A stretch of 35,526 nucleotides of DNA from the NCBI GenBank assembly GCA_027052175.1, contig JALUFE010000075.1, positions 1-35,526 of the forward strand, written 5' to 3'. This DNA comes from Helicobacteraceae bacterium (lineage in GTDB: Bacteria > Campylobacterota > Campylobacteria > Campylobacterales > Sulfurimonadaceae). Made by a program: the position numbers and the translations under genes. Numbering within the stretch: position 1 is the stretch's first letter; the number at the start of each line of letters is the position of its first letter. The notes below the pieces were generated by a model. It had not been told where the DNA came from, did not search any database, and saw only the letters and a list, made by a program, of their open reading frames with translations. Below, piece after piece: positions 2,345-32,599 of the stretch.

Positions 2345-2445
2345 AATCATTAGTATCAGTTATCAATGTTGCTCTTGCTGCCCTCCTGTGAGTGTAGAAG
2401 AGAAACTTGAACTTAAATCTTGCCTTTATGGCTGAAGGAGAATAT

Positions 2446-3989: not shown

Positions 3990-4001
3990 GAGAGGATATA
4001 A

Positions 4002-7000
4002 ATGTATTTAGAAAGTAGAAGAACATTTTTAAAAGGTGCCGCATTTACGGTTGCAGGTGCCGCGATAGCAAAAGGTGTATTTGCTACAGACGCTGCAGCG
4101 GAGTCAGTAGCGGACAGTAAATTTACAAACACGCCAAGCTCTCTTTCGTTCTATCCTGACCAATCTGAGTGGGATAGCTTCAAAGAGCTTGACGGAGATG
4201 ATTGGAAAAGAGGTGGTATCGAGCGCCACGGTGTTCGAAGCCCTTCCAATCCTGACGGTATCCAGGTCAACGACTATGTCATCGTTCCAACAGTTTGTTC
4301 TAACTGTGAGGCGGGATGTGGTCTAACTGCATGGGTTAACAAGAACGACTACGACAAAGGTATCCTGACAGTACGCAAGTACATGGGGAACCCGCTTCAC
4401 ACAGGAAGCCGTGGTAGAAACTGTGCAAAGGGTTATGCTGTAACATCTCAGATGTACGATCCGGATCGTATTCCGTTCCCAATCAAAAGAGCTCCAGGTT
4501 CTAAAAGAGGTGAAGGGAAGTGGGTAAGAACTACTTGGGATGAGGCGATGGCGACTATCGGTAAGAAGATGCACGATACGCTTAAAAAGGGCGATGAGAT
4601 CTCCAAAAAGCAGATCATGTATCATGTCGGTCGTCCAAATGAGAACGGTTTTGGACCTCGTGTTCCTCAGTCTCTTGGAATCGATGGTTACAACTCACAC
4701 ACAAACATCTGTTCCGCAGGTGCGCGTGAAGGTACGATCCAGTGGGCGAATGACGACAGAAACTCTCCAGACTGGGCAAACGCGAAGCTGATCTTCTTGC
4801 AGTCTTCTCACGCAGCGGATGCAGGTCACTACTTCCAGCAGTCTGCAGGCTATATCGCCGATGCAAGAAGAAAAGGTGCGAAGATGGTCGTTCTCGATCC
4901 TCGTATGTCCAACTCTGCAGGGATGGCGGATCTTTGGATCCCGACTTGGCCAGGTACGGAAGCAGCGCTTTATCTTTATCTTGTCAACAGAATTCTCAAC
5001 GAGAAAGATAAAGATGGAAGCGATCTCATCAACCATGACTTTGTTAAAAACTGGGTTAACTGGGACAGATTGATGAAAAACCGCAACTACCTCAAAAAGA
5101 TGGTAGAGTACGGTTACATCAAACAAGTACCAAAAGGTGACTCATATGAAGACTTTATCGAACTTTTAAAAGAACTCTACGCTCCATATACAAAAGAGTT
5201 CGTTGTCAAAGAGTGCCGTCTTGAAGGTATGGAGTACAAACTCGATCAGCTTTGGGAGATGTTCATCCCTGCAGGTGATCAGATCGCTACATATCTCTGG
5301 AGAGCCGGACCGATCGGTCACAGAGGCGGTTGGATGAACACTCGTGCCGGATTCCTTCCACTTGCACTTCGCGGTGCGCTTCGTGGTGATATCGGTGGTA
5401 CATCTTTCCACCACTGGCATGAGATCTCCGTTGCCGGTAAAGGTGACAAAGCGACAGTAGCCGGTGAACACCCGAAAAAAACGGATGTCTGGAACGAGCT
5501 TGCATGGCCGCCTGAGTATCCGATCTCTACATATGAGATGGGATTTATGCTGCCACAGCTCATCATGGATGAGGAGTGGATAGCAAAATGGGAGAGAAGA
5601 GGTCTGAAGATCCCTCACTCTATCGCTGTTTATGTTCCAAGAATGCACAACCCACTCTGGATCAACCCGGATGGTTTCAGATGGATGGAGGCTCTTAAGC
5701 GTGAAGACAAGTTCGAGCTTACTATGAACCTTTCTCCAACATGGTCTGAGACAAACTGGTACTGTGACTATGTTCTTCCGGTTGGTCTTGCAGGTGAGAG
5801 AAACGACCAGCAGTCAACTCCGTCCAAGCCTGAGCAGCGTATCGAGTTTAGACAGGCTGTTTTAAGAGTCGCTGCTGAGAAGCAGGGATGGAAACCAAAA
5901 GATCCAACTCGTGCGACACTTGAAGCGCATATGAAGTTCGGTCTTGGTGAGATCTGGGAAGAGAGTGAATTCTGGCCAAACATCATGGTGCACTATGTCG
6001 ATCCAGACGGTAGCCTTGGTGTGAGAAAATACTGGGCGAGTAAAAAAGATCCAAGCCGCGCGGTTACGATCCCTGAGTACTTCGATACGGCGCTCAGCTT
6101 GCTTCCAAAACTCAAAGCGGCAGCTACGAAGCTCTATCCAAACGAAGAGTATCCGGTATATGCATACATCAGAGACCACGGTGCATGGACAGAGAAGACT
6201 GATGTTTACAAGCCTCAGGAAGAGCCGCTTGAGATCAAAGACGGATATGTCTATGCTCACGGTCACAAGTACCACCATACAGAGGTCGAGCAGGATGAGT
6301 TCGGTGCTCTATGGGTCAAAGACGGCGAGTTGAAAAAGTCTATCGGTGTCGAGATCGACGGCAAATTCTACGAAGGTTTCCATACACTCAGTAAGAAACT
6401 CGAGTACTTCTCTGAGTGGCTGACAGAGTGGAAGTGGCCTGAGTATGCGATCCCTGTTTACCCTAGAAACGAGCAGGAACGCAAAAAGATGATCCATCTC
6501 GTTACTCAGGTACACCATGATCATATGAAAGCCGAGAACGAGTTCGCGCTCAATACGATCTACAGATTGCCATACAACATCCATACACGTTCTGTCAACT
6601 CCAAGCACCTTATGGAGATCTCTCAGAACCACAACCCTGTATGGATCTACACTGAAGATGCGAAACGTCTTGGTATCAAGCGTGGCGATGCGATCAAAGT
6701 CAAGATCGTCGATACACTTTCAGGTATCGAGAGTGGACACTTCATCGCGATGGCTGTTCCGACGGAAGCGACTCGTCCGGGTGTTCTTGCATGTTCTCAC
6801 CACGCCGGTAGATGGAGACTCAAAGAGGCTGTATCTATCCCAGGTTTCGAGCATCAGCTTGGCGTTATGGGGCTTGGTGCACCACTGTATGAGATGACAA
6901 ATGATGGGAAAGTCGGTACGATGAAACCGAAAAAAGGTATTCATCCATACCATCATGTATGGCAGTTCAAAGAGTATAACAAAGACCTTGACAACATCTG

Positions 7001-7292
7001 GTGGGATGGACTTAGTGGTGCGTGGCAAAATGCCGTCGCTCCTTGTCACCCAGACCCGATTGCCGGTAACCATGGATGGCATCAAAAAGTCATCATCGAG
7101 AAAGCCGGACCGGATGAGAAGATCGGTGACATCTATGTCAATTATGAAAATAACTATAAAGTCTACCAGGAGTGGAGAGACAAACTTACTCGTCCTCTCG
7201 CACCTGGTGACAAGTGGAGAAGACCGTACCACATCAAGAGACCGGTCAAACCAAGTCAAAAAGCTTACAAAGTCGAGATTAAAGACGTATAA
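4002..7292 (+). CDS. Tat-exported molybdopterin oxidoreductase catalytic subunit (CISM family, substrate unknown)
   Basis: This 1096-residue subunit starts with a twin-arginine signal (SRRTFLKGAAFTVAGAAIA). It then has a cysteine set for a [4Fe-4S] cluster, CSNCEAGC with a distant GRNCAKGY, and molybdopterin-binding segments such as VVLDPRMSNSAGMADLW. The likely Mo ligand is the cysteine in NICSAGAREG. A C-terminal molydopterin-dinucleotide-binding domain covers roughly residues 850-1050. At about 1100 residues it is longer than PsrA/PhsA (~760) and close to TtrA (~1020). The B-C-A gene order resembles ttrBCA, but SoeA- or polysulfide-reductase-like roles are equally possible. The ribosome site is AGGAGAGG. 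No frameshift was seen. Confidence 0.9.
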   Translation: MYLESRRTFLKGAAFTVAGAAIAKGVFATDAAAESVADSKFTNTPSSLSFYPDQSEWDSFKELDGDDWKRGGIERHGVRSPSNPDGIQVNDYVIVPTVCSNCEAGCGLTAWVNKNDYDKGILTVRKYMGNPLHTGSRGRNCAKGYAVTSQMYDPDRIPFPIKRAPGSKRGEGKWVRTTWDEAMATIGKKMHDTLKKGDEISKKQIMYHVGRPNENGFGPRVPQSLGIDGYNSHTNICSAGAREGTIQWANDDRNSPDWANAKLIFLQSSHAADAGHYFQQSAGYIADARRKGAKMVVLDPRMSNSAGMADLWIPTWPGTEAALYLYLVNRILNEKDKDGSDLINHDFVKNWVNWDRLMKNRNYLKKMVEYGYIKQVPKGDSYEDFIELLKELYAPYTKEFVVKECRLEGMEYKLDQLWEMFIPAGDQIATYLWRAGPIGHRGGWMNTRAGFLPLALRGALRGDIGGTSFHHWHEISVAGKGDKATVAGEHPKKTDVWNELAWPPEYPISTYEMGFMLPQLIMDEEWIAKWERRGLKIPHSIAVYVPRMHNPLWINPDGFRWMEALKREDKFELTMNLSPTWSETNWYCDYVLPVGLAGERNDQQSTPSKPEQRIEFRQAVLRVAAEKQGWKPKDPTRATLEAHMKFGLGEIWEESEFWPNIMVHYVDPDGSLGVRKYWASKKDPSRAVTIPEYFDTALSLLPKLKAAATKLYPNEEYPVYAYIRDHGAWTEKTDVYKPQEEPLEIKDGYVYAHGHKYHHTEVEQDEFGALWVKDGELKKSIGVEIDGKFYEGFHTLSKKLEYFSEWLTEWKWPEYAIPVYPRNEQERKKMIHLVTQVHHDHMKAENEFALNTIYRLPYNIHTRSVNSKHLMEISQNHNPVWIYTEDAKRLGIKRGDAIKVKIVDTLSGIESGHFIAMAVPTEATRPGVLACSHHAGRWRLKEAVSIPGFEHQLGVMGLGAPLYEMTNDGKVGTMKPKKGIHPYHHVWQFKEYNKDLDNIWWDGLSGAWQNAVAPCHPDPIAGNHGWHQKVIIEKAGPDEKIGDIYVNYENNYKVYQEWRDKLTRPLAPGDKWRRPYHIKRPVKPSQKAYKVEIKDV

Positions 7293-16076: not shown

Positions 16077-17609
16077 TTACGAAAAAAGCCCGGCGAGAAA
16101 CGCGCTTTTGTAGTCGCCGCTTTGGGTTTGGAAGTTTGCGAGATTTGGAAACGCACTCTTCATTGTGCGCTCATCCACTCCAAACCAGTCAAGAACGGGT
16201 GCAAACATCTGCTCTATGGATGTAGTCGGGATAAGACGGCCTTTGATGTTGCGGCTTGGGTAGAAGTTGGTGTTGGTGTCTTCAAGCTTATAGTTATCGA
16301 CTGATTTTCCCACTATCTCGCCTCCATTGAAGTTGGAGTCACCACACATAACGAACTGATGTCCGCCCCATCCGTGATCGGTGCCATCCCCGTTGCTTAG
16401 CAGCGTTCTACCAAAGTCGCTTGTCGTAGCCAAGAGCACTTTCTCTTGCAAGCCCATCTCCTCAAGCGCTTTGTAGAAGTCACTCACCGCAAGGCTTATA
16501 CTTCGAAGTCGCTGGGTATGATCGACCATCTGCCCGGAGTGGAAGTCAAATCCTCCCATAACCATATAAAAAACCTGTCGCTTGTAACCGAAATGCTCTT
16601 TGCCGATCTTGATAAAACGAGCGATGGATTCGAGATATTTGAAGAGTCTGGAGTCAAGCCCATGCACATCTAAACCTATGTCGGAGGTTTTTGGTACGCT
16701 AAAGAGAGCATCCCCATAGGAGTTTTTGGCACTAAAGGTGCTAAAATCGACTGCATCGTTCCACACGCTTTTGAATGTATCGGAGAACTCTTTTGCGTCG
16801 AGATTGAGGCGTTTGTAGTAGGATTCGAAGATATTGCTGTCTTTGGTCTTTGCGAACGCTTCGATGATGGGAGGTATGTCTTTGTTTTTGAACAGGTCGG
16901 GCTTTTCGCCAAAGACAAGCGGGGAAGTGTCTTTGCCTGTCACCATCATATCGAGCCCATGGTAGGAGACATTGAGCCCGATCTTGCCGTTGATGGGACT
17001 CCAGGCATCGGCAACCCTGCCAAGCCAGCCGGAGTTGATCCTTGACTGCGCGTAAGCGGTGGCGATGGCGCGCCGTTGATGATCGTGCGCAAAGAGAAAG
17101 AGCGGTAGATCGGCAGTTTTGTTCGCTATATCATCGTAAGTTGTAGGTTTTACAAGTGTTCCGACATTACTGACAACTGAAAGCACCCTTTTTTCATAGA
17201 GTGCTGCAAGTTCTGGCATCAAGCCGTGAAATCCAAGCTCACCGCCCACCTTATACATCCCCTTGCGATAGACCGACTCCAGATCGTTTCCGGCATAGGG
17301 GTTTTTGGATTTGTCACTACTTGTGTAGTAGCCGTTGGCATCTTTATTGTAGTAGGTATCTTTCGTGAGATCGGTATCGAAGACGGAGATCTTCTGTCTG
17401 ACTGCAGCATAGTCGCTGTGATGGGTGCTGTCAGTCGGTATAAAGGTGTTAAACGAGTCATTTCCCCCATAAAACTGCAAGATGACGATCGCCTTGTAGT
17501 CGCTGAAGTTGGTCGAAGAGGCAAAAAGCCCCTCTGCCGCTGCGGCACTAAGCAGCGGAGCCGAAGCCATACCTTTAAGTGTGTTTTTTAAAAAATCTCT
17601 TCGCTGCAT
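16077..17609 (-). CDS. DUF1501 protein, Tat-exported (second DUF1501 of the operon)
   Basis: This 510-residue protein begins with a Tat signal (RRDFLKNTLKGMASAPLLSAAAA) and belongs to the DUF1501 family, distant relatives of the alkaline phosphatase/sulfatase fold. Conserved pieces: VILQFYGGNDSFNTFIP near residue 43, LFAHDHQRRAIATAYAQ, GWLGRVADAW, GGFDFHSGQ, and SDFGRTLLSNGDGTDHGWGG near 395, with Asp/His residues likely to bind metal. The biochemical role of the family is not established as far as I know. Last gene of the c-di-GMP-riboswitch operon, 9 nt after the DUF1800 partner. Confidence 0.88.
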   Translation of the reverse strand: MQRRDFLKNTLKGMASAPLLSAAAAEGLFASSTNFSDYKAIVILQFYGGNDSFNTFIPTDSTHHSDYAAVRQKISVFDTDLTKDTYYNKDANGYYTSSDKSKNPYAGNDLESVYRKGMYKVGGELGFHGLMPELAALYEKRVLSVVSNVGTLVKPTTYDDIANKTADLPLFLFAHDHQRRAIATAYAQSRINSGWLGRVADAWSPINGKIGLNVSYHGLDMMVTGKDTSPLVFGEKPDLFKNKDIPPIIEAFAKTKDSNIFESYYKRLNLDAKEFSDTFKSVWNDAVDFSTFSAKNSYGDALFSVPKTSDIGLDVHGLDSRLFKYLESIARFIKIGKEHFGYKRQVFYMVMGGFDFHSGQMVDHTQRLRSISLAVSDFYKALEEMGLQEKVLLATTSDFGRTLLSNGDGTDHGWGGHQFVMCGDSNFNGGEIVGKSVDNYKLEDTNTNFYPSRNIKGRLIPTTSIEQMFAPVLDWFGVDERTMKSAFPNLANFQTQSGDYKSAFLAGLFS

Positions 17610-17618
17610 CCTCTCTCC

Positions 17619-19589
17619 TTATCTGATAACCATATAGTACGGCGAAGTCGCGATCGCCACGATCGCCGCAACAACGATCCGTTTTGCTCTGTGTGGCAGC
17701 TTGTTGTCATAGCCTCCGACATTTGCCAAATATTTCACTAAAGCATCCCTGTAATCCTTTGGCAAACGATCCCCCAGCATCTTGTGATCGAGATATGCCA
17801 CAAGCACTTGGGCACCCTTTTGCTGTTTCGCACTCTCTTTTAAGCCGGCAAAGTCGCCGTTCGTATCGCCATCGACCGCCTTTTCGAAAGTCGCATAGAC
17901 ATCGCTAAGATCGACACACATCAGCTGCGGTGCCGCCTGACCTTTTTTACTTAGTCCTTGCGTCATGAACTCTTCAAGTGTCGCGAACTTTTTGTCTATA
18001 TGGAGTATCGCGTATTTGTCAAATGATCCCAGTATCATCGTGATAAAGTTGTTGTAGCGGATCAGATTGGATGGTGTTTGGATCTGGAGTTCTGGCGCTA
18101 TAAGATGGTTGGCTGTAAAGTTCGCATCTTTTGGAGCGTAGTCGGCATCATAGAAATTAAAGACATCCGGCGCACTCATCGCCGCCTGGGCGAAGATGCC
18201 CTTGGTAGCCGCCCAATACAGCGGCATATCGCTTGAAACCTTGTCCCCGTAAAATATCCACGAATGCGTCGGCATCACACCAAATGTCGAGTAGAGATGC
18301 GCCAAAGAGGTGAGCAGCTCATCGACACGCCCTCTGTTTTCGTTCAGACCGTTGCGAACCTCTTTGTCAAGCAGGATCGCTCGCACAACCGCTCCAAGAT
18401 CACCCTTCTTGCCATGACCGTTGTCGTTGAAGACGCTTGCGACTCTTTTGACATACTCCGGTGAAGGGTTGGAGGTGGTTAAGCGCTGGATGAGCTTCTT
18501 GGCGATGAAAGGAGCGATGTTTTTGTTCCGTGTGAGGATATCGAGCTCCGACTCGATATCCTGCTCTCCTGTTTGTCCAGATGGGATATCCTGACCCAAA
18601 AGACGCTTCGCACCCGTGTCGTGATACTGAGAGTAGAATTCTATAGGCAGCAGATAGCACCCGCCCCCTTTGGCGATGCGATCAAACCGACCATTACCCG
18701 CAACACTCCATCCGCTAAAGATCCGCGCTCCCTCCATCACATCATCTTGCGTATAGGTAGGGATATCTCTGCCGTTTTTCGTCTCTATCGTTCCATCCAG
18801 ACGCAGCTCGCTTGGACCGATGGAGAACATCTGCATGATCTCTCTGGCATAGTTTTCATCGGGACTCTCCCCTTTGCTTGGGTCGTACTTCGCACTTCCT
18901 ATGTAGGTCATATAGTATGCCATAGCAGGGGAGTAGGTGATGTCTCTTAGCAGCTTCTTGTAGGTACTAAAGGCATCGCGCTGGAGGATATCGTAGTAGT
19001 AAGCAAGCCCCTCACCCCGCCACTCAAGCAGGTTGCCCGCAGGTGAAACCGCAGAGACGACGATGATCTGACTCAGCGCATACGCAACCTTCTGGCGCAG
19101 CTGATCCGTTCCCCTGAAGGCTCTTTGCCACCAAAGAGAGTTTGATACAAGTCTGTACTTCTTGGGTGTGGCGATCTTGTCGCAGCTACTTCCATCTGTA
19201 GGATGCGCCATCTGTGCGGTGTAGTTCCCATCGAGTTTGCTCAAAGTCTCATAGAGCAGATCGACCATCGACTTCTTTTCATCAAAAGGCATACCAAGCT
19301 GCTTATCGATCCATGCCGCATAGCCATGCTGCATCACATACGTTATATCGCTCTCCTTTTGTGCGATGGCGGCTTGCTTCAAGAAGGTGATCGCCTGTGC
19401 TCTTGTTGCACTTTTGTTGGTGTTGAGCCAGCTATTTTCAGGAGTGGTGGTCTCTCCATCACCTCCACTATTTTTTTGGTTGTTTCCACCGCCGCTGCTT
19501 GAGGAGCCACCCCCTCCTCCACAGTTTCCAAGCAGCATAGACAAAAGCAGTGCTGTAGCGATCTTGAATGATATAGAGACTATTTTCAT
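17619..19589 (-). CDS. DUF1800 lipoprotein (second DUF1800 of the operon)
   Basis: This 656-residue protein has a lipoprotein signal (MLLGNC as lipobox region, Cys about residue 23) followed by a Gly/Ser linker, then the helical DUF1800 domain. Landmarks: ATRAQAITFLKQAAI at the domain start, WWQRAFRGTDQLRQKVAYALSQIIVVS, SPAMAYYMTYIG, PDENYAREIMQMFSIG near 255, DDVMEGARIFSGW, and FIAKKLIQRLTTSNP. DUF1800 and DUF1501 genes are commonly adjacent in bacteria, which supports joint function, but the activity is undescribed to my knowledge. It lies 13 nt after the first DUF1501 gene and 9 nt before the second. Confidence 0.88.
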   Translation of the reverse strand: MKIVSISFKIATALLLSMLLGNCGGGGGSSSSGGGNNQKNSGGDGETTTPENSWLNTNKSATRAQAITFLKQAAIAQKESDITYVMQHGYAAWIDKQLGMPFDEKKSMVDLLYETLSKLDGNYTAQMAHPTDGSSCDKIATPKKYRLVSNSLWWQRAFRGTDQLRQKVAYALSQIIVVSAVSPAGNLLEWRGEGLAYYYDILQRDAFSTYKKLLRDITYSPAMAYYMTYIGSAKYDPSKGESPDENYAREIMQMFSIGPSELRLDGTIETKNGRDIPTYTQDDVMEGARIFSGWSVAGNGRFDRIAKGGGCYLLPIEFYSQYHDTGAKRLLGQDIPSGQTGEQDIESELDILTRNKNIAPFIAKKLIQRLTTSNPSPEYVKRVASVFNDNGHGKKGDLGAVVRAILLDKEVRNGLNENRGRVDELLTSLAHLYSTFGVMPTHSWIFYGDKVSSDMPLYWAATKGIFAQAAMSAPDVFNFYDADYAPKDANFTANHLIAPELQIQTPSNLIRYNNFITMILGSFDKYAILHIDKKFATLEEFMTQGLSKKGQAAPQLMCVDLSDVYATFEKAVDGDTNGDFAGLKESAKQQKGAQVLVAYLDHKMLGDRLPKDYRDALVKYLANVGGYDNKLPHRAKRIVVAAIVAIATSPYYMVIR

Positions 19590-19602: not shown

Positions 19603-21147
19603 TCATGCCATAAAGTTCAGATCGGTTCTTGTAGCATCAAAGTTTTGTCGCTCAGGCAATGCGGTGTCGATCTCGCTATCACTGGCACCGAACCACTCCA
19701 AAATCTTGCCGTAATACTCTGAGTAAGAAGTTGTAGGGATCAATCTTCCTCGATGAGAGATATCATCATCTCCAGCTACTGTAAGATCTGGGAAGACTCC
19801 ATAGTTGCCTGGCTTGACCGCACCAAGCACGAACTGCGCACCACCCCATGCGTGGTCGCTTCCATCACCGTTGCTGGCAGTGGAGCGTGAGAAGTCGGAG
19901 AGTGAGACAACCGCGACCTCATCGAGCCACCCTTTAGTTTGCATAGCACGCATAAAGGCATCGATGCCAAGACTGAGCCCCCGCAAGCGTACACTATGGT
20001 CTCGCTTGAGATGGCTGTGCTGATCAAATCCGGGCACGGTAATGCTCAGCACAATGCGTTTGAAGCCTTTATCCTTCGCGATAGTGATCAGCTTCGCCAC
20101 TGTTTTGAACGACTCAATCACTCGGTTGTTGACCGGCGTATCCATCGCCATTTGCGCTTTGGTGACTTCATGGTGCTGACTTGTAGGATCATAAATTGTA
20201 TTGCCATAGGCATCGGTGATACCTTGAAGATCTGTATCACTGTTAACGCTGTTCCAGTCGATGAGTGTTTGAACTGTCTCGGCGTAACTGCTGCTTCTTA
20301 ATGATCTTATAAGATTTCTAAAAGGATCCTGGTTCCCTGCCGTGCGTGTTTCGTTGACCCACTGCTCATAGGCACTATCGAGATCACTGCCCAATTGTGT
20401 CGGTCCCATATAGCTGTAGTTCATCGGAGAGGTGGTAGCACCGAACATCGCATGTTCGATACCGTATCCCGAGAGGTTGATGTTCATTTTATAGATCGGA
20501 TCACTGTTGACATTGCCCCACTGATCCGCCAATCTTCCCATCCATCCTGTGGGAACCGTCATACTCGAGGAGACGCCCAGATGTGCCAGGAGATTTTGGA
20601 TATTGTGAGCGAAGAGACTTGGTGGTCGCTTGGTTTTGTCACCCAACAGTTGAGATTTGGTATAGGGTCCTCCGATATTTCCCACATTTTGGATCACAGC
20701 GCCCCTGCCTTGATCCAGCCAGTAGGCAAGTTCGGGCATCATGGCGTTGATGGCTATTTTGCTGTTGAAGTTTTGTTTATCTAAAAGATAAAACCCTTTC
20801 ATGTAATGCTTTGCTCCATTCGTTCCGCCGGCATTATAGGGGTTGTCCGATGCGGAACCGATCTGCAACTCTCCACCGTTTACAAGATTGCGAAGAGCAC
20901 CCATCAAATCCGTATCAGGTATCGCGACACCACTTCCTCTTTCTATTCTATAGTTGTTATACCCTGTTTTACTATCGCTTCCTGTCGGTATAAAAGTGTT
21001 CAGCGCATCGTTTCCTCCCTGCGTATCGACAAGCACGATCGCTTTGAAACCGGTTAGAGTATTGCCGGGATCGGCCGATAAGATCTGAGGGAAAGCCCCA
21101 ACGCCCCCTAAGATAGCTGAATATTTCAAAAAGTCTCTTCGTTTCAT
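19603..21147 (-). CDS. DUF1501 protein, Tat-exported (first DUF1501 of the operon)
   Basis: The 514-residue protein has a Tat signal (RRDFLKYSAILGGVGAFPQILSA) and all DUF1501 landmarks: AIVLVDTQGGNDALNTFIP, SLFAHNIQNLLAHLG, GWMGRLADQWG, VPGFDQHSHLKRDH and SDFSRSTASNGDGSDHAWGG near 395-415. Compared with the other copy it has the same order but clearly diverged sequence, so the duplication is old. It pairs with the DUF1800 gene 10 nt upstream. The domain resembles metal-dependent phosphatase/sulfatase folds, so a hydrolase or ligand-binding role outside the cytoplasm is possible, without proof. Confidence 0.88.
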   Translation of the reverse strand: MKRRDFLKYSAILGGVGAFPQILSADPGNTLTGFKAIVLVDTQGGNDALNTFIPTGSDSKTGYNNYRIERGSGVAIPDTDLMGALRNLVNGGELQIGSASDNPYNAGGTNGAKHYMKGFYLLDKQNFNSKIAINAMMPELAYWLDQGRGAVIQNVGNIGGPYTKSQLLGDKTKRPPSLFAHNIQNLLAHLGVSSSMTVPTGWMGRLADQWGNVNSDPIYKMNINLSGYGIEHAMFGATTSPMNYSYMGPTQLGSDLDSAYEQWVNETRTAGNQDPFRNLIRSLRSSSYAETVQTLIDWNSVNSDTDLQGITDAYGNTIYDPTSQHHEVTKAQMAMDTPVNNRVIESFKTVAKLITIAKDKGFKRIVLSITVPGFDQHSHLKRDHSVRLRGLSLGIDAFMRAMQTKGWLDEVAVVSLSDFSRSTASNGDGSDHAWGGAQFVLGAVKPGNYGVFPDLTVAGDDDISHRGRLIPTTSYSEYYGKILEWFGASDSEIDTALPERQNFDATRTDLNFMA

Positions 21148-21157
21148 CGTCGTCTCC

Positions 21158-23200
21158 TTAGTTTGTCATATACTCTTCGCTCATGGTGATCTCGGTGATC
21201 AGTGGAGCGATGATTCTTGCAACGAGATACTTTTGTATCGTTTCGTTGTCCCAGCTGGGAGCATATCTATTTGTAAATACATCTCTATAAGCATCTACCA
21301 GCTTTTGAACCGTTTCACTATCGAGCTGCTTGCCCAAGAGACGCTGCGAGGCATCCTGTATAACATATCGCACCGCCGCTTCCCGTCCGGCTTGATCCTT
21401 TGGTCCATCTTTGAACTCTTTTCCAGTTTTTTTGAACTGCTTCAAATAGTCCGCAAAATCAAAGAGCATATAGGTGTGGAACTGTCCGCTTGAGCGTCCC
21501 AGGGTATAGCTGCCATTGGAGTCTTTGTTGCTGGCATAGAGATAGTGATACTCGTTGCGTTTGAATGTATCGAGCGTATTGTTCTCTATCCCCACCATAT
21601 ATTTTGTCGTATAGAGTGAGGCTTTGGGCGCTTTCCAACCTCGTAGTTTGAACTCTGCGTCATTAGGTTGATAACCGTCGCTAAAAAAGCCAAATACCGT
21701 TGGTTGGTAAGTTGGCCACTGATTGAGCGTAGCGTATTTTGAACGGACAAAATAGTGGTTGTCAATGGAATGTTTTGTTCCATCGTCATCGGTCACTTCG
21801 CGCTTAGGCCACGGCTTGACACCCATCGCGCGCAGCATCTGGGTGTACATAAGGTAAGGCTCTTTGATCTCCACAGCCTGGTCGTTTTTGATATTTTCCC
21901 AAATGTTTTCATCAAGCAGTATCGCTTTGACGGTTTTTCCTATGTCTCCGCCGCTGTTTTTAAATACCGTAGCGACCCTTTCGATATAGTCTGTTTTTGG
22001 ATTGGATTTTGTCAAACGGATGATCAGTTTTTTCGCTATAAACGGCGCTGCATTTGGATGGTTCATGAAGATATTGACCGTATCGTTGATATCTTGGTAG
22101 CAGTTTTGCCCTGCCGGTACCGTTTGACCTAGAAATGTTTTCGATCCAGTATCATGATAGCTGCTATAGCAGTCCATCGGATGCAGCGAGTCACTCTGCC
22201 ATAGTGTAGGGTTATGGTTGTTGGGCTGCGTATGGTGCGGATAGATAAGTCCGGTAAAGACTCGTGAGACCTCCATCACATCTTGTTGTCCATACGAAGC
22301 AATGCGTTTGCCGTTTTGACGCTTGGGTGATCCACCCATATCGAGATCGAAAAGTCCTATGGAGAAGAGCTGCATGATCTCTCGTCCATAGTTTTCATCG
22401 GGATAGATGGTTTGGTTTGTATCCTTATCTACATACTCTTTGCGATTGCTTGCATAGGTCAGGTAAGTTGCCATTGCCGGAGAGAGACTGACATCATAGA
22501 GGATATCACCATACTTTCCAAAGGCATTTTTCAGCAGGATATCATAGTAGTAAGAAAGTGCTTCGCCTTTGTTTCTAAAGAAGAAGTCGGTCGATTCACT
22601 CGCAACGATGATTTCAGAGAGTTCAAAAGCGACGCGCTGGCGCAGTTGTGCATCATCTTCGAGATGACCTTTGAGAACAGCACTTGAGTGATAGTCAAGT
22701 TCATCTGCGCCATGAATCAGCGTTCGGTTAAAAACCGTATCGTTATTTGCTAAGAACTGGTTAATCAAGTTGTCGATATCGGCTTCACTTTGGGGGAGAG
22801 GTAATCCAGCCTTATCGCAGTAGGCATAGGGGCGCATCTTGAGTGCATCGTGCATCATATTGTAAACGATACTCTCTTTTTTGAAGTTCCACGGTTTTGC
22901 AAGCTGCTCATCGACCCATGTGACGACCCCTTTTTGTTTAAGTTCTTGGACATCTTTTGGAGTAGCACCCATCGTCGCCATATCGAGGAACTTCACAGCC
23001 ATGCGATCGGTCAACTGGCTTCCTGTTGGGATATAACTGTAAGGGGTTCCGCCGCCACCAGAACCTCCAGAACCTCCAGAACCACCACTAGATCCGCCGC
23101 CTGTTCCACCATCGGAGCCGCCGCCCCCGCCTCCACAGGCACTTAACGCTATGAGTGTCATCACCATCATTATCAGTTTCAGTATGTTTCTTGTTTTCAT
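21158..23200 (-). CDS. DUF1800 lipoprotein with Gly/Ser-rich linker (first DUF1800 of the operon)
   Basis: This 680-residue protein has a clear lipoprotein signal (LIALSAC, Cys near residue 22), then an extreme low-complexity Gly/Ser linker of about 30 residues built of GGS-type repeats, likely a flexible tether from the outer membrane. The DUF1800 domain follows: MAVKFLDMATMGATPKDVQEL, QLRQRVAFELSEIIVAS, YPDENYGREIMQLFSIGLFDLD, QQDVMEVSRVFTGL and AAPFIAKKLIIRLTKSNP. The linker makes the DNA at 23040-23140 repetitive, a possible slippage site. It is 12 nt downstream of the DUF2202 gene. Confidence 0.88.
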   Translation of the reverse strand: MKTRNILKLIMMVMTLIALSACGGGGGGSDGGTGGGSSGGSGGSGGSGGGGTPYSYIPTGSQLTDRMAVKFLDMATMGATPKDVQELKQKGVVTWVDEQLAKPWNFKKESIVYNMMHDALKMRPYAYCDKAGLPLPQSEADIDNLINQFLANNDTVFNRTLIHGADELDYHSSAVLKGHLEDDAQLRQRVAFELSEIIVASESTDFFFRNKGEALSYYYDILLKNAFGKYGDILYDVSLSPAMATYLTYASNRKEYVDKDTNQTIYPDENYGREIMQLFSIGLFDLDMGGSPKRQNGKRIASYGQQDVMEVSRVFTGLIYPHHTQPNNHNPTLWQSDSLHPMDCYSSYHDTGSKTFLGQTVPAGQNCYQDINDTVNIFMNHPNAAPFIAKKLIIRLTKSNPKTDYIERVATVFKNSGGDIGKTVKAILLDENIWENIKNDQAVEIKEPYLMYTQMLRAMGVKPWPKREVTDDDGTKHSIDNHYFVRSKYATLNQWPTYQPTVFGFFSDGYQPNDAEFKLRGWKAPKASLYTTKYMVGIENNTLDTFKRNEYHYLYASNKDSNGSYTLGRSSGQFHTYMLFDFADYLKQFKKTGKEFKDGPKDQAGREAAVRYVIQDASQRLLGKQLDSETVQKLVDAYRDVFTNRYAPSWDNETIQKYLVARIIAPLITEITMSEEYMTN

Positions 23201-23212
23201 TACTCTCTCCTT

Positions 23213-23929
23213 TTATGCTAAACAGCGTGTTTTTTGATTCCACAAGGCTGCAAGCAGTCCATCTCCGCTTCCCGATGGAAACTCCTCCGGCGTCTTGCAA
23301 TAGTCCGCTCCAACACTACAGCATCCATTTGCTACGCCATTTTGGATCAACGCATAGTGATACGCCCAGTAGTGACTCTGACTACCGGCTACGAGATACT
23401 TGAATGTCTTTTCAAGATATTTGTTTCCATCTACTTGCCCTAAAAAGCCTGTTAAGTCTCGGATATCCTGTACTTCGACCATACAACCAATCTTTAGAGC
23501 TTGTATATCACCTTGCTTGGCATAAGGGATCAGTGTATCTTTATATCTGGTTTCAAAGTCGGATATGGCATAATCCCCCGCTCCCATCGCTCTTAGTTCT
23601 GTCGGTTTGTAATGGGCATCTTTGTTGGAGTAGTCGTTGACGTCGATATTGTAAAGAGCTACAAGCTCCTCCACCGCCGTCATATGCTGTACCTCCGACC
23701 AGTGCCCTATGTTGTAAAAGAGGCGAAGATGCGGATAGAGCCCATACACCGCTTCAAACGCATCATGCGCCATCTTCTCTTCGCTCCACATGTGTGCCAG
23801 TGCATGGCGCTGTGAATCGGTAAGTGTGAGATCTTTGTCTATATGATCGATGCCGTAAGCTATGGGGTACTCTGCAGGGGTCTTACAGTAGCCGTTTCCC
23901 GCTTTGCAACACCCTTCCGACCACACCAA
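23213..23929 (-). pseudogene. Second DUF2202 domain, frameshifted continuation of the tandem DUF2202 gene
   Basis: The 238-residue ORF has no real start: its GTG lies within the preceding gene and has no ribosome site. It opens with the tail of domain 1 (GCCKAGNGYCKTPAEYP) and then holds a complete ferritin-like DUF2202 domain with likely metal ligands: EEKMAHDAFE, GHWSEVQHMTAVEEL, MVEVQDIRDL and GSQSHYWAY, ending with GCCSVGADYCKTPEEFP. The matching GCC...YCKTP tails show that ORF 24503-23883 and this one were one two-domain protein. Deleting one base near 23918-23925 (GGAAGGG on the minus strand) restores a 429-residue product. Confidence 0.82.
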
Positions 23930-24503
23930 GATCGATCAGCTGTTGGTTAAGCGCCCAGTAGTGCCCCATACTGCCATCTATAAGATAGGTGATGTTTTCT
24001 TGCACCTTTTTACGGTTGGCAAACTCACCAAGATCTCTTTGCATCTCGTCGATACCATCTACACTCACTTTCGCAAGTGTCAAAAACGCGTCTTCCAACG
24101 AAGAGAGTCCCTCCTTTTTGAGCTGATCGAACTTGTTGGTCATAGCCGTAGATGGAAACTTGCCAAGCTCCAAGGCTTGAAGCTGTTTGGTCGTATAAAG
24201 CAGCTGCGCATCACTTGTGTAGCTGAGATCCACATTGTAGAGCTTGACCACTTCGTCAAGCACGGCTCTTCTGTTTGTGGCACTCCATTTGCCCATCGTA
24301 TTTAGCAGGTCGTTGCCAAACTGCTTGGCAAACGTCAGCGCCAAAGATGCCCGTAGCCTTTCATCGTGCCAGATGTCGGCTATGAGCTTTTGCTGTTTGG
24401 CGCTTAGGAGTTTGTACTCCTCACCAAAGAGCGACTCTCCGCCTATGAGCATACTCCCCGATGCCGCCGCGGCCAATTTCAAAAAATCTCTTCTCTCTTT
24501 CAT
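23883..24503 (-). CDS. Tat-exported DUF2202 ferritin-like protein, first domain (truncated by frameshift)
   Basis: This 206-residue ORF has a Tat signal (RRDFLKLAAAASGSMLIGG) followed by a DUF2202-like four-helix domain ending in GSMGHYWALNQQLIDLG. After this the frame leaves the family pattern and closes as VVGRVLQSGKRLL. Key ligand positions are poorly kept: the SEVQHM of domain 2 aligns with SATNRR, so domain 1 may not bind a di-metal site and may be structural. The gene is preceded by the nine-haem cytochrome (9 nt). Read with the next ORF, it encodes a tandem DUF2202 exported protein. Confidence 0.82.
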   Translation of the reverse strand: MKERRDFLKLAAAASGSMLIGGESLFGEEYKLLSAKQQKLIADIWHDERLRASLALTFAKQFGNDLLNTMGKWSATNRRAVLDEVVKLYNVDLSYTSDAQLLYTTKQLQALELGKFPSTAMTNKFDQLKKEGLSSLEDAFLTLAKVSVDGIDEMQRDLGEFANRKKVQENITYLIDGSMGHYWALNQQLIDLGVVGRVLQSGKRLL

Positions 24504-24512
24504 CGCTCGCTC

Positions 24513-26204
24513 CTACTTCATCTCTTTGTGGCATTTGTTACATCCGATGGTCTCACCCGCTTTGAGTTGGGCGTACCGATCCATCACGCCAAGCTTGAAT
24601 GTTCGGTTGGCTGATGCTTTGGAGAGGAAAGTCCCTTTTAGATCCTGACCGTGGCACGCCTTACAACTGCTTGAAGAGTGTTTCAGTACAATGGTGCCAT
24701 GTCTGTTGACCCACTCCTGATTGTGCGGATGCAGTCCGTGCGGTCCTTTGTCGAATGTTGTCGCGACCACCTCATCGGCATGACACGCACCACACTCTCG
24801 TATGGTTCCTTTATAGCCCTGATGCGCCATACTCTGTCTGTTTTCATCCTTGTTGGTTGAGGGGTATATGGCATGCTGCGAACCGTGACACGCGCTACAC
24901 GCCACGCCGCCATGAGAAAGGCTATGTTTGTAGAGCTTCGTTTTGCCGCCATACTTTTCAGTTCCAAAACGCATATCAAGAGCATTGCGAAGTGTGCCCC
25001 TCTTCATATCGGTAACGGCTGCCGTGTATCTTTTGCCATTTTGATGGCACGCCTGGCAGTTTGGCTCGTCTATCCAGCTTTTTCTGCCTTTTTTGGCAAC
25101 CGCTTCCATAGTGCCATGGCAGCTTTGGCACTGGATCTTGGCGTTGCCGTTGGCATCGACGGCATGCCCCATCGCACCTCTAAGACACTGCGTACTCTCA
25201 CCTGGATGGCAGGCGTAGCAGGAGTTTCGATTTGTACTCTCGCCAAGTGTCTGGGTCGCTCCCGGGATGCGTCTTGAAGCATGGGCGTGGTGCATCGCTT
25301 CGGTAAGTGGCTCTATGCCGCTGATCCCTGTTCCAGGCAGTGCGTTGGAGCTGTGGCACGCAGCGCAAAGGATCGGCGTACCCGCTTTAGCCGTCGCTGC
25401 AAGTCCCGCGTTGTCATAGTTGTAGCCTTTGGCTTTAAGTGAGGCGTTATTGTCTTTGACGGCATTTGGATGGAGCTTGTCATGTTTTATGAGCACATCC
25501 ATGCGTACATTGGAGCTGTCTGTGTTATGACACTTCGCACAGCTCATCTCACTGCTGACGGCAAGTGTCGTTACAGTTTGCGCCAGCACCTTTCCGTTTT
25601 TGTTCTTGGCAACCACTTTGACAAGCGGATACTCATCGGCATTGCCCCCATCATCTATAGGGATCGTCGGGATCCCTTCGGCTACATAGAGGTTGTAAGA
25701 GGAGTTGTAGTCCATTGGCTGCGGCACACTGCTTTGTGTTTTTTTACCCTTTAAGCCTACATCGTTTTGGAGTGTTACACCAGGAAAGAGTTTACCTGCA
25801 TACTGCCAAAAGTTACTTTTGTCGCTGCTGGAAGTATTGATGCTGCCATCACTCTTGTCAAGCGCCTCGTAAGTGATGCTCACCCCCTCGTTCACGATAC
25901 GCGGCGATCTGCCTTTTACTATAAGCTGGGCTTTGAGCGTGTTGTAAGGTGGAAGAAGCGAAAATACCCCGTAATCCTTATCCATACAGTGCATACCAAG
26001 CTCACCCCAGGCAAAAAGTGCGAACTTGGTTTTGTTAAAGTCGAAGCTGTAAGCATCTTTATAAGAGTTTATTGTTGATGGGGGCGGGATATTTTCATCC
26101 CCGCCGCTTTTCCCTCCTCCACATCCGGCACTCATAAGCGTCATCGCGAATGAGAGCGAAAAGGAAAGGAAAAATGGTATGAGCTTTTTATGATAAAGCG
26201 TCAT
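24513..26204 (-). CDS. Nine-haem cytochrome c lipoprotein
   Basis: This 563-residue protein has nine CxxCH motifs: CAKCH, CAACH, CYACH, CQSCH, CQACH, CSACH, CGACH, CKACH and a final CNKCH four residues from the end. An N-terminal lipoprotein signal ends at MSAGCGGG. A haem-free domain (residues ~45-215) contains FALFAWGELGMHCMDKDYGVFSLLPPY, a pattern I associate with N-termini of other multihaem cytochromes. The ORF-track start at 26294 lies inside the upstream gene; ATG 26204 follows AAAAAGGATGCTAT and starts the signal. A role in electron transfer across or outside the outer membrane is plausible. Substrate unknown. Confidence 0.9.
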   Translation of the reverse strand: MTLYHKKLIPFFLSFSLSFAMTLMSAGCGGGKSGGDENIPPPSTINSYKDAYSFDFNKTKFALFAWGELGMHCMDKDYGVFSLLPPYNTLKAQLIVKGRSPRIVNEGVSITYEALDKSDGSINTSSSDKSNFWQYAGKLFPGVTLQNDVGLKGKKTQSSVPQPMDYNSSYNLYVAEGIPTIPIDDGGNADEYPLVKVVAKNKNGKVLAQTVTTLAVSSEMSCAKCHNTDSSNVRMDVLIKHDKLHPNAVKDNNASLKAKGYNYDNAGLAATAKAGTPILCAACHSSNALPGTGISGIEPLTEAMHHAHASRRIPGATQTLGESTNRNSCYACHPGESTQCLRGAMGHAVDANGNAKIQCQSCHGTMEAVAKKGRKSWIDEPNCQACHQNGKRYTAAVTDMKRGTLRNALDMRFGTEKYGGKTKLYKHSLSHGGVACSACHGSQHAIYPSTNKDENRQSMAHQGYKGTIRECGACHADEVVATTFDKGPHGLHPHNQEWVNRHGTIVLKHSSSSCKACHGQDLKGTFLSKASANRTFKLGVMDRYAQLKAGETIGCNKCHKEMK

Positions 26205-26217
26205 ATAGCATCCTTTT

Positions 26218-27279
26218 TTATTGTCTTGGTTCGCCGAAATCTTGAGTCCAGTATTTGCCGTATTTGTCATCGGCCAGCATAAGGGACATCCCAAGCTCAG
26301 TGAAATGCGGATCCATCAGGTTTTTGCAGTGTCCGTCGCTATCGAGCCATCCTTGTATTACATCATCCAAAGTCCGATATCCTTTGGCGATGTTTTCACC
26401 TATGTAGTAGAAGTTATAGTTGAAATACTCTATCCGGTCACGCATATAACTCCCGCGGCCAAGATGCTGTGTTTTTGCAACGATGTCGCTGTCGGTGTTT
26501 GAGCCCACATGGTGCCACGCATTGCCGTGGACCATATCATAGTTGTAGGTGTATGCTGCTTTGTAGAGTTTGTCATTCCATGTAAGAGCAGGTACGGCAT
26601 CTTGCATACCATACTCTCCGCAATCTTGCTGGTGTGCTCTTGCATTGTTGACGGCATCGAGAAACGCTTTTTTCTGTTTTTCGGATATCGGAGGAATGAC
26701 AAATTTTTCATCTTTGTATCCAAGAGTGTCGTTGAGATTTTTTTGTGCAGTCTGTTTGTCCACCGTTACGGTGATATTCTCGTTGTTTTGCAGTTCGTTG
26801 ATAAAGTCGTTGGAAGGATCGTCAAGTGAAGTCGCATTGTCAAATCGGTGATCTTTGAGTTTTTCGACATCGATATAGGCGCTGCTTGCATGGTTGTCGC
26901 AGTTTTGAAGCAAAATGGCGATATTTGTCGCTTTTGTGCTTGGTGCTGCAGGCGAGCCTCCGCCAAGCGTATAAGGTGTTATAAGTTTTTTCGCTTGGAC
27001 ACGCCCGAGGTAGAGATCACCGAGATAGAAGGCTATATATTCATTTTTTTTATACTGGAACTGTCCCTTTTCATCGGTGTAGCCGTTTTGGGTTTTTGTT
27101 TTATATCTGAGCCCTTTGACGGGAGCGTCGACGAAAGTCCCTGTGAGGAGAGTTTCAGGTTCATACTTGATGAAGTTGGATCCATCATCGCTTCCGCTAT
27201 CGCCTCCACAGCCAACAAGCAAGAGTGTGATTGCAAATAAAAGAAAGAATCTCGGTGAGATCTTGAGAGAGTTTTTCAC
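26218..27279 (-). CDS. CAP/SCP-domain lipoprotein, first gene of the c-di-GMP riboswitch operon
   Basis: From the GTG at 27279 (ribosome site AAAGGAG, 7 nt) the protein has 353 residues: lipoprotein signal FFLLFAITLLLVGC; a small beta domain (TGTFVDAPVKGLRYKTKTQNG, G-F-D-x-F-like turn, ~residues 40-110); and a C-terminal CAP domain (~205-353). The CAP domain has the characteristic LTWNDKLYKAAYTYNYDM, HH with later GENIA, GWLDSDGHCKNLMDPHFTELG and W-T-Q-D-F end. The track's longer ORF reads backwards through the riboswitch and is not credible. CAP proteins are secreted, often lipid- or protein-binding; the target here is unknown. Confidence 0.9.
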   Translation of the reverse strand: MKNSLKISPRFFLLFAITLLLVGCGGDSGSDDGSNFIKYEPETLLTGTFVDAPVKGLRYKTKTQNGYTDEKGQFQYKKNEYIAFYLGDLYLGRVQAKKLITPYTLGGGSPAAPSTKATNIAILLQNCDNHASSAYIDVEKLKDHRFDNATSLDDPSNDFINELQNNENITVTVDKQTAQKNLNDTLGYKDEKFVIPPISEKQKKAFLDAVNNARAHQQDCGEYGMQDAVPALTWNDKLYKAAYTYNYDMVHGNAWHHVGSNTDSDIVAKTQHLGRGSYMRDRIEYFNYNFYYIGENIAKGYRTLDDVIQGWLDSDGHCKNLMDPHFTELGMSLMLADDKYGKYWTQDFGEPRQ

Positions 27280-27319: not shown

Positions 27320-27340
27320 AAGCAAGAAGAAGGGAGTTGC

Positions 27341-27478
27341 AAAAGAGGCAACCGGCTATCTGTCCCTACTCGATTTGTACGTATGCTTTGTGATTTTTTT
27401 TTACACAGCATATCAAGTAGAGACAGACCCTTGGCTTTCCGTCCCCGCTTCGCAGCGGGTTTGGCTTTTTCTCCTTTT
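27341..27478 (-). ncRNA. Cyclic-di-GMP-I (GEMM-I) riboswitch
   Basis: On the minus strand the RNA contains the class signature in order: AAGCCAAACC; hairpin CCCGCT-GCGA-AGCGGG with a GNRA tetraloop; GGACGGAAAGCCAAGGGTC; a 13-bp stem GTCTCTACTTGAT/ATCGAGTAGGGAC extended by ATGCT/AGCAT; then ACAGATAGCCGGTTGCC. Relative to the Vibrio Vc2 aptamer the position usually called 20 is G, fitting c-di-GMP rather than cGAMP, and the 21-46 pair is switched from G-C to C-G. P1 can form from AAAAGGAG and CTCTTTT with one bulge. It sits 62 nt before the CAP gene start. Class identity is read from the consensus, not from a covariance search. Confidence 0.9.
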
Positions 27479-30693: not shown

Positions 30694-30744
30694 GCGTTTC
30701 TGTGAGAGATTTTAAAATTTTATGAAACAAATTATGCCTTTTTG

Positions 30745-30750
30745 TATAAT
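30745..30750 (+). promoter_or_regulatory. -10 element for the HAD-FAD fusion gene
   Basis: TATAAT preceded by TTTTTG; a start near 30757 leaves a short leader with AGAGG before the TTG at 30779, and rules out the ORF-track ATG at 30722. Confidence 0.55.
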
Positions 30751-30778
30751 ATCGAAAATATTTCAGAGGTGTAGGGTC

Positions 30779-32599
30779 TTGTTCGTAGAGAAAAAACTCA
30801 TTATTTTTGACTTTGATGGCACGCTTATCGACAGTGTCCCGGATCTGGCAGCCGCTGTCAATTATATGCTCAAAACTCTCGGTTACAAAGAGCAAAAAGA
30901 GAGTGTAGTCCGTGAGTGGATAGGCAACGGTGCTAAGATGCTTGTGCGTCGTGCATTGATTCACACTGGATCAGATAAGAGCCTTAGTGATGAGCTCCTC
31001 CAAGAAGCGCTTGCACTCTTTCTTACCTACTATAAAGAGCATATGTGTGATGCGACCTACCTTTACCCAAATGCGAAAGAGACTTTGAACATCCTCAAAC
31101 GGCACGGAAAAAAAACAGCTATAGTCACCAACAAACCAAGCGCTTTTGTCGCACCGATTTTAGAGAAGCTGGGTATTGTACATCTTGTTGACTTCTATCT
31201 TGGTGCCGAGGATGCCAAGCAGAAAAAACCGCATCCGGCTCCACTTCTGAAGGCATGCAAACAAGCAGGAGTAGAAGTGGAAGAAGCGCTGATGGTAGGG
31301 GATTCGAAAAACGATATAGAGGCTGCCAAAGCGTGCGGTATGCAAAGCATCGCAGTGAGTTACGGCTACAACTACGGAGAGGGTGCCGCTTCTTTGGGAG
31401 CGGATAAAACGGTAGAGGATCTCAAAGAGATCGTACATCTGCTGGGGATACGACCTCGTGTTGCAGTTGTAGGAGGCGGAGTTGCAGGCAGCAGTGTGGC
31501 ACTGCATCTTGGAGAGCTGGGAGCGGATGTGGCGCTTTTTGAGCGAAAAAGCTCTCTTGTTGACGGGCCGCCTATGTGTCATCTTCATGCCGGGGGTAAT
31601 CTGTATCGGGAGATATCGGACGATCAGTGTTTACAGCTTTTGAGAGAATCGATAGAGCTTGTACGCTTCTATCCACAGGGGATCGATTATAGACCTACGA
31701 TTATCGCTATTCCTACCTATGATGATGTGAGCGTGGAAGATCTGTTACCACGTTTGCATTTGCTGCAGCGAGAATATGCACGCCTTGTAGAAACAGATGA
31801 ACGAAACAGGGTACTCGGAGAGCCCAAGGAGTACTTCGAGTTTTTTGACAAAGAGGAGATAGAGGCACTCGCAAGGCAAGAACCAACAAACGATCCAAAG
31901 AGCTCAAAAGAGTGGCTGATCCCCTTTGCCAAAGAGACAGATCTCTCAAAGATAAAATTCCCCGTTCTTTTCGTTCGGGAGTTCGGGCTCAATGTCTTTC
32001 GCATCGCCGCGTCAGCGACACTCCTTATAAAGCGACTGCCAAACGTTTCACTGCATTTGCAAAGTGAAGTGATCGATGTGAGTGAAAATGAGAGCGGCTT
32101 TTTGGTTCGTTATCTCCAAGACGGCAAAGAGAAAGAGGAGTCTTTTGACTACCTTGTCAATGCCGCAGGTTTTCAAAGTGGACATATCGATGATATGCTG
32201 GGGTATAAGCGGGAGCGTTTTGTCGAATTCAAGGCGGCTTACGTTACAAAATGGAGAGAAGATAACTACAAATGGCCGGAGGTGATCTTTCATGGCAGAC
32301 GCGGTACGCCGCAGGGGATGGCACAGTTCACACCGTATGTGGGAGGCCATTTTCAACTGCACGGTATGACAAAGGATATTACGCTTTTTGAAAAGGGACT
32401 GGTTAAAAGCTCTCCTCTCTCTGCACAACCCAAGCTTGATGCAAAATTTAAACAAAATCTACACCGGATGGAGCCAAGAGCCGCTTCACAAACGTACACA
32501 AAGAGCTATCACACACCTTGCACGCTTTATCCCCGCTTTCAAAGAGGCAAAAGTGGCCGCCCAGCCGCTTTATGGGGCACAGCAGATCCCGGGACGTGA
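30779..32599 (+). CDS. HAD phosphatase (phosphoglycolate phosphatase-like) fused to FAD-dependent oxidoreductase, frameshifted at the 3' end
   Basis: From TTG 30779 (leader AGAGG, promoter at 30745) the frame encodes a Gph-like HAD domain (residues ~1-218): nucleophile DFDGTLIDS, TNKPSAF, KPHP and acid pair GDSKNDIEAA. After KEIVHLLGIRP it runs directly into an FAD/DAO-type oxidoreductase with the dinucleotide motif VAVVGGGVAGSSVALHLGELGADVALFER and a later LVNAAGFQ. No Met or stop separates the two domains. Near 32450 the frame leaves the family sequence; the true C-terminus continues at +1 (see next entry). The tail from about KFKQN to the stop at 32599 is out of frame. Confidence 0.82.
   Translation: MFVEKKLIIFDFDGTLIDSVPDLAAAVNYMLKTLGYKEQKESVVREWIGNGAKMLVRRALIHTGSDKSLSDELLQEALALFLTYYKEHMCDATYLYPNAKETLNILKRHGKKTAIVTNKPSAFVAPILEKLGIVHLVDFYLGAEDAKQKKPHPAPLLKACKQAGVEVEEALMVGDSKNDIEAAKACGMQSIAVSYGYNYGEGAASLGADKTVEDLKEIVHLLGIRPRVAVVGGGVAGSSVALHLGELGADVALFERKSSLVDGPPMCHLHAGGNLYREISDDQCLQLLRESIELVRFYPQGIDYRPTIIAIPTYDDVSVEDLLPRLHLLQREYARLVETDERNRVLGEPKEYFEFFDKEEIEALARQEPTNDPKSSKEWLIPFAKETDLSKIKFPVLFVREFGLNVFRIAASATLLIKRLPNVSLHLQSEVIDVSENESGFLVRYLQDGKEKEESFDYLVNAAGFQSGHIDDMLGYKRERFVEFKAAYVTKWREDNYKWPEVIFHGRRGTPQGMAQFTPYVGGHFQLHGMTKDITLFEKGLVKSSPLSAQPKLDAKFKQNLHRMEPRAASQTYTKSYHTPCTLYPRFQRGKSGRPAALWGTADPGT

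Follow-up and report, generated by a model that had tools for sequence, protein, structure and literature searches.

The gene at positions 24513 to 26204 of the window (the whole stretch of 35,526 nucleotides that was analysed) encodes a lipoprotein with nine haem-binding motifs, which we consider rather likely to be an electron-transfer cytochrome with bis-His ligation at every haem, anchored by lipid in the outer membrane and made within a surface-associated programme set by a riboswitch. The original prediction had located a nine-haem lipoprotein at these coordinates, which are correct, but had left out the strand. The gene lies on the minus strand as a complete open reading frame (563 codons plus stop, with its ATG at 26204), and the plus strand is interrupted by stops. 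In the product, P0001, residues 1 to 28 (..SFAMTLMSAGC) are consistent with a lipoprotein signal peptide and are followed by a short linker. The lipobox LMSAGC and nine CxxCH motifs bear out the prediction of a multihaem lipoprotein, and the motifs do fall in the C-terminal two thirds, starting at residues 222, 280, 329, 359, 383, 436, 471, 514, and 555, with none before 222. The features of the protein were as follows.

24513..26204, minus strand: nine-haem lipoprotein cytochrome P0001, 563 aa (open reading frame; PF22113, PF14522, and PF14537 over cut-off; 76-member alignment)
26121..26204, minus strand: predicted lipoprotein signal peptide and lipidated Cys28 (..LMSAGC-GG, +2 Gly; sequence)
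25941..26000, minus strand: LGMHCMD...PPYN block, residues 69-88, with invariant Met71, His72, and Cys73 (alignment A2)
25563..26027, minus strand: predicted N-terminal beta-sandwich domain, residues 60-214, without CxxCH (AlphaFold2, DSSP strands)
25527..25541, minus strand: haem 1 CxxCH, residues 222-226 (this and the following haems, sequence and alignment)
25353..25367, minus strand: haem 2 CxxCH, residues 280-284
25206..25220, minus strand: haem 3 CxxCH, residues 329-333, followed by the invariant non-haem Cys340
25116..25130, minus strand: haem 4 CxxCH, residues 359-363
25044..25058, minus strand: haem 5 CxxCH, residues 383-387
24885..24899, minus strand: haem 6 CxxCH, residues 436-440
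24780..24794, minus strand: haem 7 CxxCH, residues 471-475
24651..24665, minus strand: haem 8 CxxCH, residues 514-518
24528..24542, minus strand: haem 9 CxxCH, residues 555-559

The haem part of P0001 matched PF22113 (MtrC/MtrF domains II/IV) with 47.6 bits against a curated cut-off of 30, and Cytochrome_C7 and Cytochrom_c3_2 were likewise over their Pfam cut-offs there; the PF22113 match recurred at E<=0.001 in 70 of 76 family members, and an NCBIfam scan of P0001 gave no model over cut-off. After trimming to a shared module of ~500 residues, 74 of 75 homologues had exactly nine CxxCH motifs and one had ten; all nine were invariant in the 76-sequence alignment A2, and the pattern is not due to chance. 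Exactly nine further histidines, outside the motifs, were invariant in the same alignment (72, 241, 305, 308, 431, 444, 489, 492, and 502). An invariant histidine to spare for each of the nine haems points to bis-His ligation at every one, as expected of an electron-transfer cytochrome; every distal site would then be filled and none of the haems would be open for catalysis. We also found a sister family of ~790 aa (L125:5258-7636, L126:2893-5244, and L127:3040-5406) that shares the GMHC..PPYN domain but has seven CxxCH and lacks an obvious lipobox. With its two fewer haem motifs, it conserves six of the distal candidates (72, 241, 305, 308, 431, and 444) and not 489, 492, and 502, the exact pairing of histidines and haems depending on the alignment.

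The N-terminal domain had been described as haem-free, with a conserved-looking GMHC block. Conservation of the block (GMHCMDKDYGVFSLLPPY, residues 70-87 of P0001) was confirmed, with L69, G70, M71, H72, C73, D75, P85, P86, and N88 invariant in the 76-sequence alignment. The term haem-free holds in that the domain contains no CxxCH, but probably not in the sense of a domain unrelated to the haems, since His72 is the ninth of the invariant non-motif histidines. His72 was also kept in the seven-haem sister family, and likewise in the divergent nine-haem member L012, where SIHA stands in place of GMHC. Because His72 is invariant, completing nine non-motif histidines for nine haems, and is retained in these relatives, we read the domain as probably the donor of a distal ligand to one haem rather than as an unrelated module. 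The beta-sandwich, near the lipid anchor, would thus pack against the nine-haem chain and lend it at least one axial ligand. Two non-haem cysteines, Cys73 and Cys340, were invariant in the 76-member alignment and both were missing from L012; on the basis of this one co-loss, a disulfide joining the N-terminal domain to the haem chain is possible. When the genomes of the class were searched with L012 for further members lacking Cys73, no new L012-like proteins were found, and the cysteine after haem 3 in the sister family aligned ambiguously with Cys340.

The HMM search and structure prediction proposed for this region were both carried out. No Pfam match was obtained for the N-terminal domain even when the stretch was scanned alone, no Pfam or NCBIfam model covering residues 60-214 was found, and a literature text search for "GMHC" with multiheme returned no papers. 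AlphaFold2 modelled residues 60-563 with a pLDDT of 83.9 and a pTM of 0.87; the N-terminal stretch was a confident beta-sandwich (pLDDT mostly >90; strands by DSSP), but the model contains no haems and is only moderately confident for the haem region, which reached a pLDDT of 76.9 when modelled alone. By Foldseek, the full model matched only generic Ig-like or p53-type beta-sandwiches of the PDB (p53, antibodies), at best with an E of 1.2e-3 and none at E<=0.001; these were read as sharing a fold class, and kinship was rejected. The moderately confident, haem-less model of the haem region alone had no structural match in the PDB by Foldseek. A sequence comparison of P0001 with solved structures yielded weak matches only, to haem-rich proteins (MtrC 9eov, E 0.0012; NrfB, 0.16). 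Reaction-centre cytochromes, which appeared in a profile search of the PDB at E>0.01, were rejected as reflecting CxxCH composition.

Among known systems, MtrC, OmcA, and MtrF of Shewanella are alike in having a lipid anchor and a beta-rich domain combined with a multihaem domain, in line with the PF22113 match of P0001. They differ in carrying ten haems in two pentahaem domains that alternate with two beta domains, where P0001 has nine haems in a single C-terminal region and one predicted N-terminal beta-sandwich. Nor were MtrA and MtrB found beside the window cytochrome or in its genus, and the cytochrome had no structure match in the PDB. P0001 is also unlike the DmsE/MtrA decahaem family (TIGR03508; 24.1 bits against a cut-off of 192.2). 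OcwA, the nonahaem surface terminal reductase of Thermincola (PMC6703420), resembles it by description in haem number, on which alone the comparison is based, and comes from a Gram-positive host; no OcwA chain was among the PDB matches of profile A2.

The lipid anchor is compatible with either face of a membrane. A PROSITE-type lipobox was present in 58 of 81 family open reading frames, with Gly at the +2 position in 52 of these and Asp in one. The spacing from the lipobox Cys to the conserved module ranged from 23 to 330 residues, and some members carry N-terminal extensions: that of L079 includes Big_2 (Ig-like) and pilus-N-type domains, and that of L038 has EF-hand-like repeats. Variable spacing between anchor and module, together with Ig-like or EF-hand-like extensions, is a pattern associated with surface display. 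The arrangement thus suggests that the module is displayed at some distance from a membrane, which would most simply be the outer membrane. The porin MtrB/PioB (PF11854) had no match in four genomes of the genus (G000-G003; the draft genome of the window is 86% complete and the sister genome G003 100%), and no DmsE/MtrA decahaem (TIGR03508) was over cut-off in 25 genomes; the known trans-outer-membrane conduit is therefore missing from these genomes.

We then considered the genes around the cytochrome and the control region upstream of them, which comprise the following features.

27343..27474, minus strand: c-di-GMP-I-type (GEMM-I) riboswitch aptamer, its variable stem unusually long (RF03167; locally built model)
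27335..27353, minus strand: possible expression platform, a hairpin GGUUGC..GCAAC using the aptamer 3' strand (predicted fold, window and L024)
26218..27279, minus strand: CAP-domain lipoprotein, 353 aa, first gene after the riboswitch (PF00188, 4.4e-16; sequence)
23213..24503, minus strand: TAT-exported DUF2202 protein in two overlapping open reading frames, 23883-24503 and 23213-23929 (Pfam match; comparison with L024)
21158..23200, minus strand: DUF1800 lipoprotein (Pfam)
19603..21147, minus strand: DUF1501 TAT protein (Pfam)
17619..19589, minus strand: DUF1800 lipoprotein, second copy (Pfam)
16077..17609, minus strand: DUF1501-like protein, second copy (clusters with the DUF1501 protein)

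The order in the window is aptamer, CAP-domain lipoprotein, cytochrome. The likely start of the CAP-domain lipoprotein is the GTG at 27279 behind AAAGGAGC, as the listed ATG at 27411 falls inside the aptamer. The aptamer (c-di-GMP-I-GGC) scored 58.5 bits with RF03167 (E 1.8e-11), 0.5 bit under the gathering score of 59, and 68.4 bits (E 7e-16) with a local model built from 15 aptamers; in the ortholog (L024/L003), it lies directly upstream of the cytochrome and is over gathering with 70.2 bits. The predicted c-di-GMP control is backed by these matches for this gene group but is not a feature of the family. Applied to the window together with 80 family loci, the local model placed an aptamer next to the cytochrome only in the window and its closest relative and beside none of the other 79; L056 and L061 do have aptamers, ~6 kb or more from the cytochrome. 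Riboswitch control as a family trait was rejected on these grounds. Two-component genes are the usual neighbours elsewhere (51 of 80 loci), and cyclic-dinucleotide control thus appears to be a feature of the window lineage.

The genes behind same-class aptamers in relatives encode CAP, F5/8-type C, collagen-like, DUF11, and subtilase proteins, a set consistent with a programme for surface life or attachment. Lipoproteins are encoded behind c-di-GMP-I-type aptamers in L110, where the product is a CAP protein, and in L115, where its N-terminus is similar to that of the window's CAP lipoprotein. In Geobacter, deletion of the cGAMP cyclase lowers transcription behind GEMM-Ib riboswitches, including that of the extracellular cytochromes PgcA, OmcST, and OmcAHG (PMC6456294). 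As in these cases, the window has an aptamer of the GEMM-I cyclic-dinucleotide class ahead of a multihaem cytochrome of the envelope, although the phylum is different; the likeness drawn here is one of riboswitch arrangement. Judged from the DNA, there is good support for placing a predicted electron-transfer lipoprotein behind a riboswitch of the cyclic-dinucleotide class, with c-di-GMP or cGAMP as the candidate ligand. We hypothesise that the hairpin sharing the aptamer 3' strand, predicted in both the window species and L024, could be the switch. The riboswitch would set transcription of the CAP-lipoprotein, cytochrome, DUF2202, and DUF1800-DUF1501 group, if these genes are cotranscribed, and the electron wire would thereby be produced within a surface-associated programme.

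The protein next to the cytochrome had been called ferritin-like. A DUF2202 protein, which we take to be ferritin-like, is indeed encoded directly downstream, with its frame split: one extra base near 23917 relative to L024, where a single 429-aa open reading frame is found, may be an assembly error or a real frameshift. As a family feature this neighbour did not stand, being flagged near only two of 80 members, a count in which the split-cluster method may have missed the longer protein of L024. L101 also has a DUF1800/DUF1501 pair, and both DUF2202 and DUF1501/1800 neighbours were rejected as family traits from the neighbour clusters of the 80 loci. Together with the two-component genes, a porin-like gene and a substrate-binding-like gene accompany the cytochrome in 18 of 80 loci, and a recurrent cassette beside it (L026, L027, L046, L053, L060, L073, L088, L103, and others) consists of an OmpR-type regulator, a long histidine kinase, a 137-aa substrate-binding-like protein, and a 336-aa porin-like protein. 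Elsewhere in the window, positions 2407-7292 encode an Fe-S protein, a membrane subunit, and a 1096-aa TAT-type molybdopterin-oxidoreductase-like protein, and 30722-32599 a 625-aa apparent fusion of a HAD-type phosphatase with an FAD-dependent oxidoreductase-like part, both named from sequence.

The family is large and uncurated. A pattern scan of one genome per species gave at least 549 stretches encoding relatives. The best 80 of these at least 549 were mostly from Campylobacterota (Sulfurimonas, Sulfurovum, Sulfuricurvum, Hydrogenimonas, Nitratiruptor, and others), the other hosts being Aquificota (Persephonella), Thiobacillus, Parasulfuritortus, Tepidiphilus, Rhodoferax, and one Desulfobulbaceae; the hosts are mainly sulfur- and hydrogen-oxidising bacteria. 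No relatives were found in the viral contigs searched. One member on a Thermaceae-binned contig (L074) was nested among Campylobacterota in the tree and is possibly misbinned, and at another locus (L124; G012:C1:2367000-2386000) three nine-haem cytochrome copies lie within ~10 kb, two of them flanking ribosomal-protein genes, with a response regulator adjoining.

Within this family, the window protein is divergent. Its closest relative (L024/L003, probably the same genome) is 85-88% identical, and a conventional copy on contig C96 of the window's own genome is 49% identical. A tree built from 78 sequences paired the window protein with L024 at 100/100 support, and the branch that carries the pair (1.21 changes per site) greatly exceeds those around it in length. 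Of the columns with at least 95% conservation in the remaining sequences, the window protein deviates at 15 (median 1), and after haem 1 it has gaps at 18 columns where >90% of the others carry a residue; despite this divergence, it keeps all nine haems, nine histidines, and both cysteines. The window copy is thus a fast-evolving paralog beside a conventional one, and its changed control, changed neighbours, and fast divergence together suggest a specialised role.

In the reading we favour, electrons would hop along the haems, with a partner in the periplasm or outer membrane at one end and, at the other, a donor or acceptor located at the cell surface or envelope; electron exchange at the surface during attachment is plausible. 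The points against an outer-membrane wire are the missing conduit, the haem domain without a structural match in the PDB, and the sister family, which could be periplasmic. The first and last of these, together with the molybdopterin-oxidoreductase-like genes in the same window, speak for an electron carrier or capacitor that faces the periplasm from the outer or inner membrane and links periplasmic enzymes, for instance that oxidoreductase, instead of bridging the outer membrane. We regard such a carrier as possible yet unlikely, given the long variable linkers and extra domains between anchor and module, the +2 Gly, and the surface proteins that this riboswitch class accompanies; no molybdoenzyme, moreover, was among the neighbour clusters that recur across the 80 family loci.

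Far less room is left for a multihaem enzyme of the nitrite, hydroxylamine, or tetrathionate type; homologues of the nitrite or tetrathionate kind had been named in the original prediction itself as refuting it. Matches of a paralog (L002) to NrfH (25.1 bits, cut-off 134.2) and to the octahaem family of tetrathionate reductase type (11.9 bits, cut-off 375) were weak and below cut-off. NrfA, HAO, and octahaem tetrathionate reductase have one Lys-ligated or open catalytic haem, whereas all nine motifs of P0001 are CxxCH, with no CxxCK seen, and an invariant His is available for each distal site; no enzyme-family model was over cut-off for the window protein. The predicted bis-His pattern therefore disfavours this alternative, which we consider very improbable. 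That the cytochrome serves as electron donor or acceptor for the DUF2202 protein, in an envelope system of iron oxidation or iron release, would suit the TAT-exported protein encoded directly downstream in both the window and L024, but is improbable in view of the rarity of this neighbour across the family (again with the reservation about L024) and of the broken frame in the window, itself perhaps an assembly error.

Going further than the surface electron-transfer cytochrome favoured above, we tentatively propose, as a reading that may well prove wrong, that these proteins form a separate and widespread surface-cytochrome family of Campylobacterota and other, mainly sulfur- or hydrogen-oxidising, bacteria. 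The beta-sandwich would act as a lid that completes one haem through the GMHC His, held by a Cys73-Cys340 disulfide as a latch so that the redox state of the envelope could gate the wire. One paralog in the genus would have been rewired from two-component to cyclic-dinucleotide riboswitch control, a coupling of surface life to extracellular electron transfer like that in Geobacter.

Literature searches found no papers describing the family or its pre-haem domain, common as the family is in vent and sediment Campylobacterota and present also in Aquificota and sulfur-oxidising Betaproteobacteria. Sulfurimonas reportedly oxidises sulfide with Mn(IV) oxide particles, and its known conduits are incomplete (PMC11748539); a candidate surface cytochrome is therefore useful for Sulfurimonas-type bacteria. 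The riboswitch adds a prediction for the window lineage, namely that an electron wire of the envelope should be expressed to different degrees as cyclic-dinucleotide levels change, as in Geobacter.
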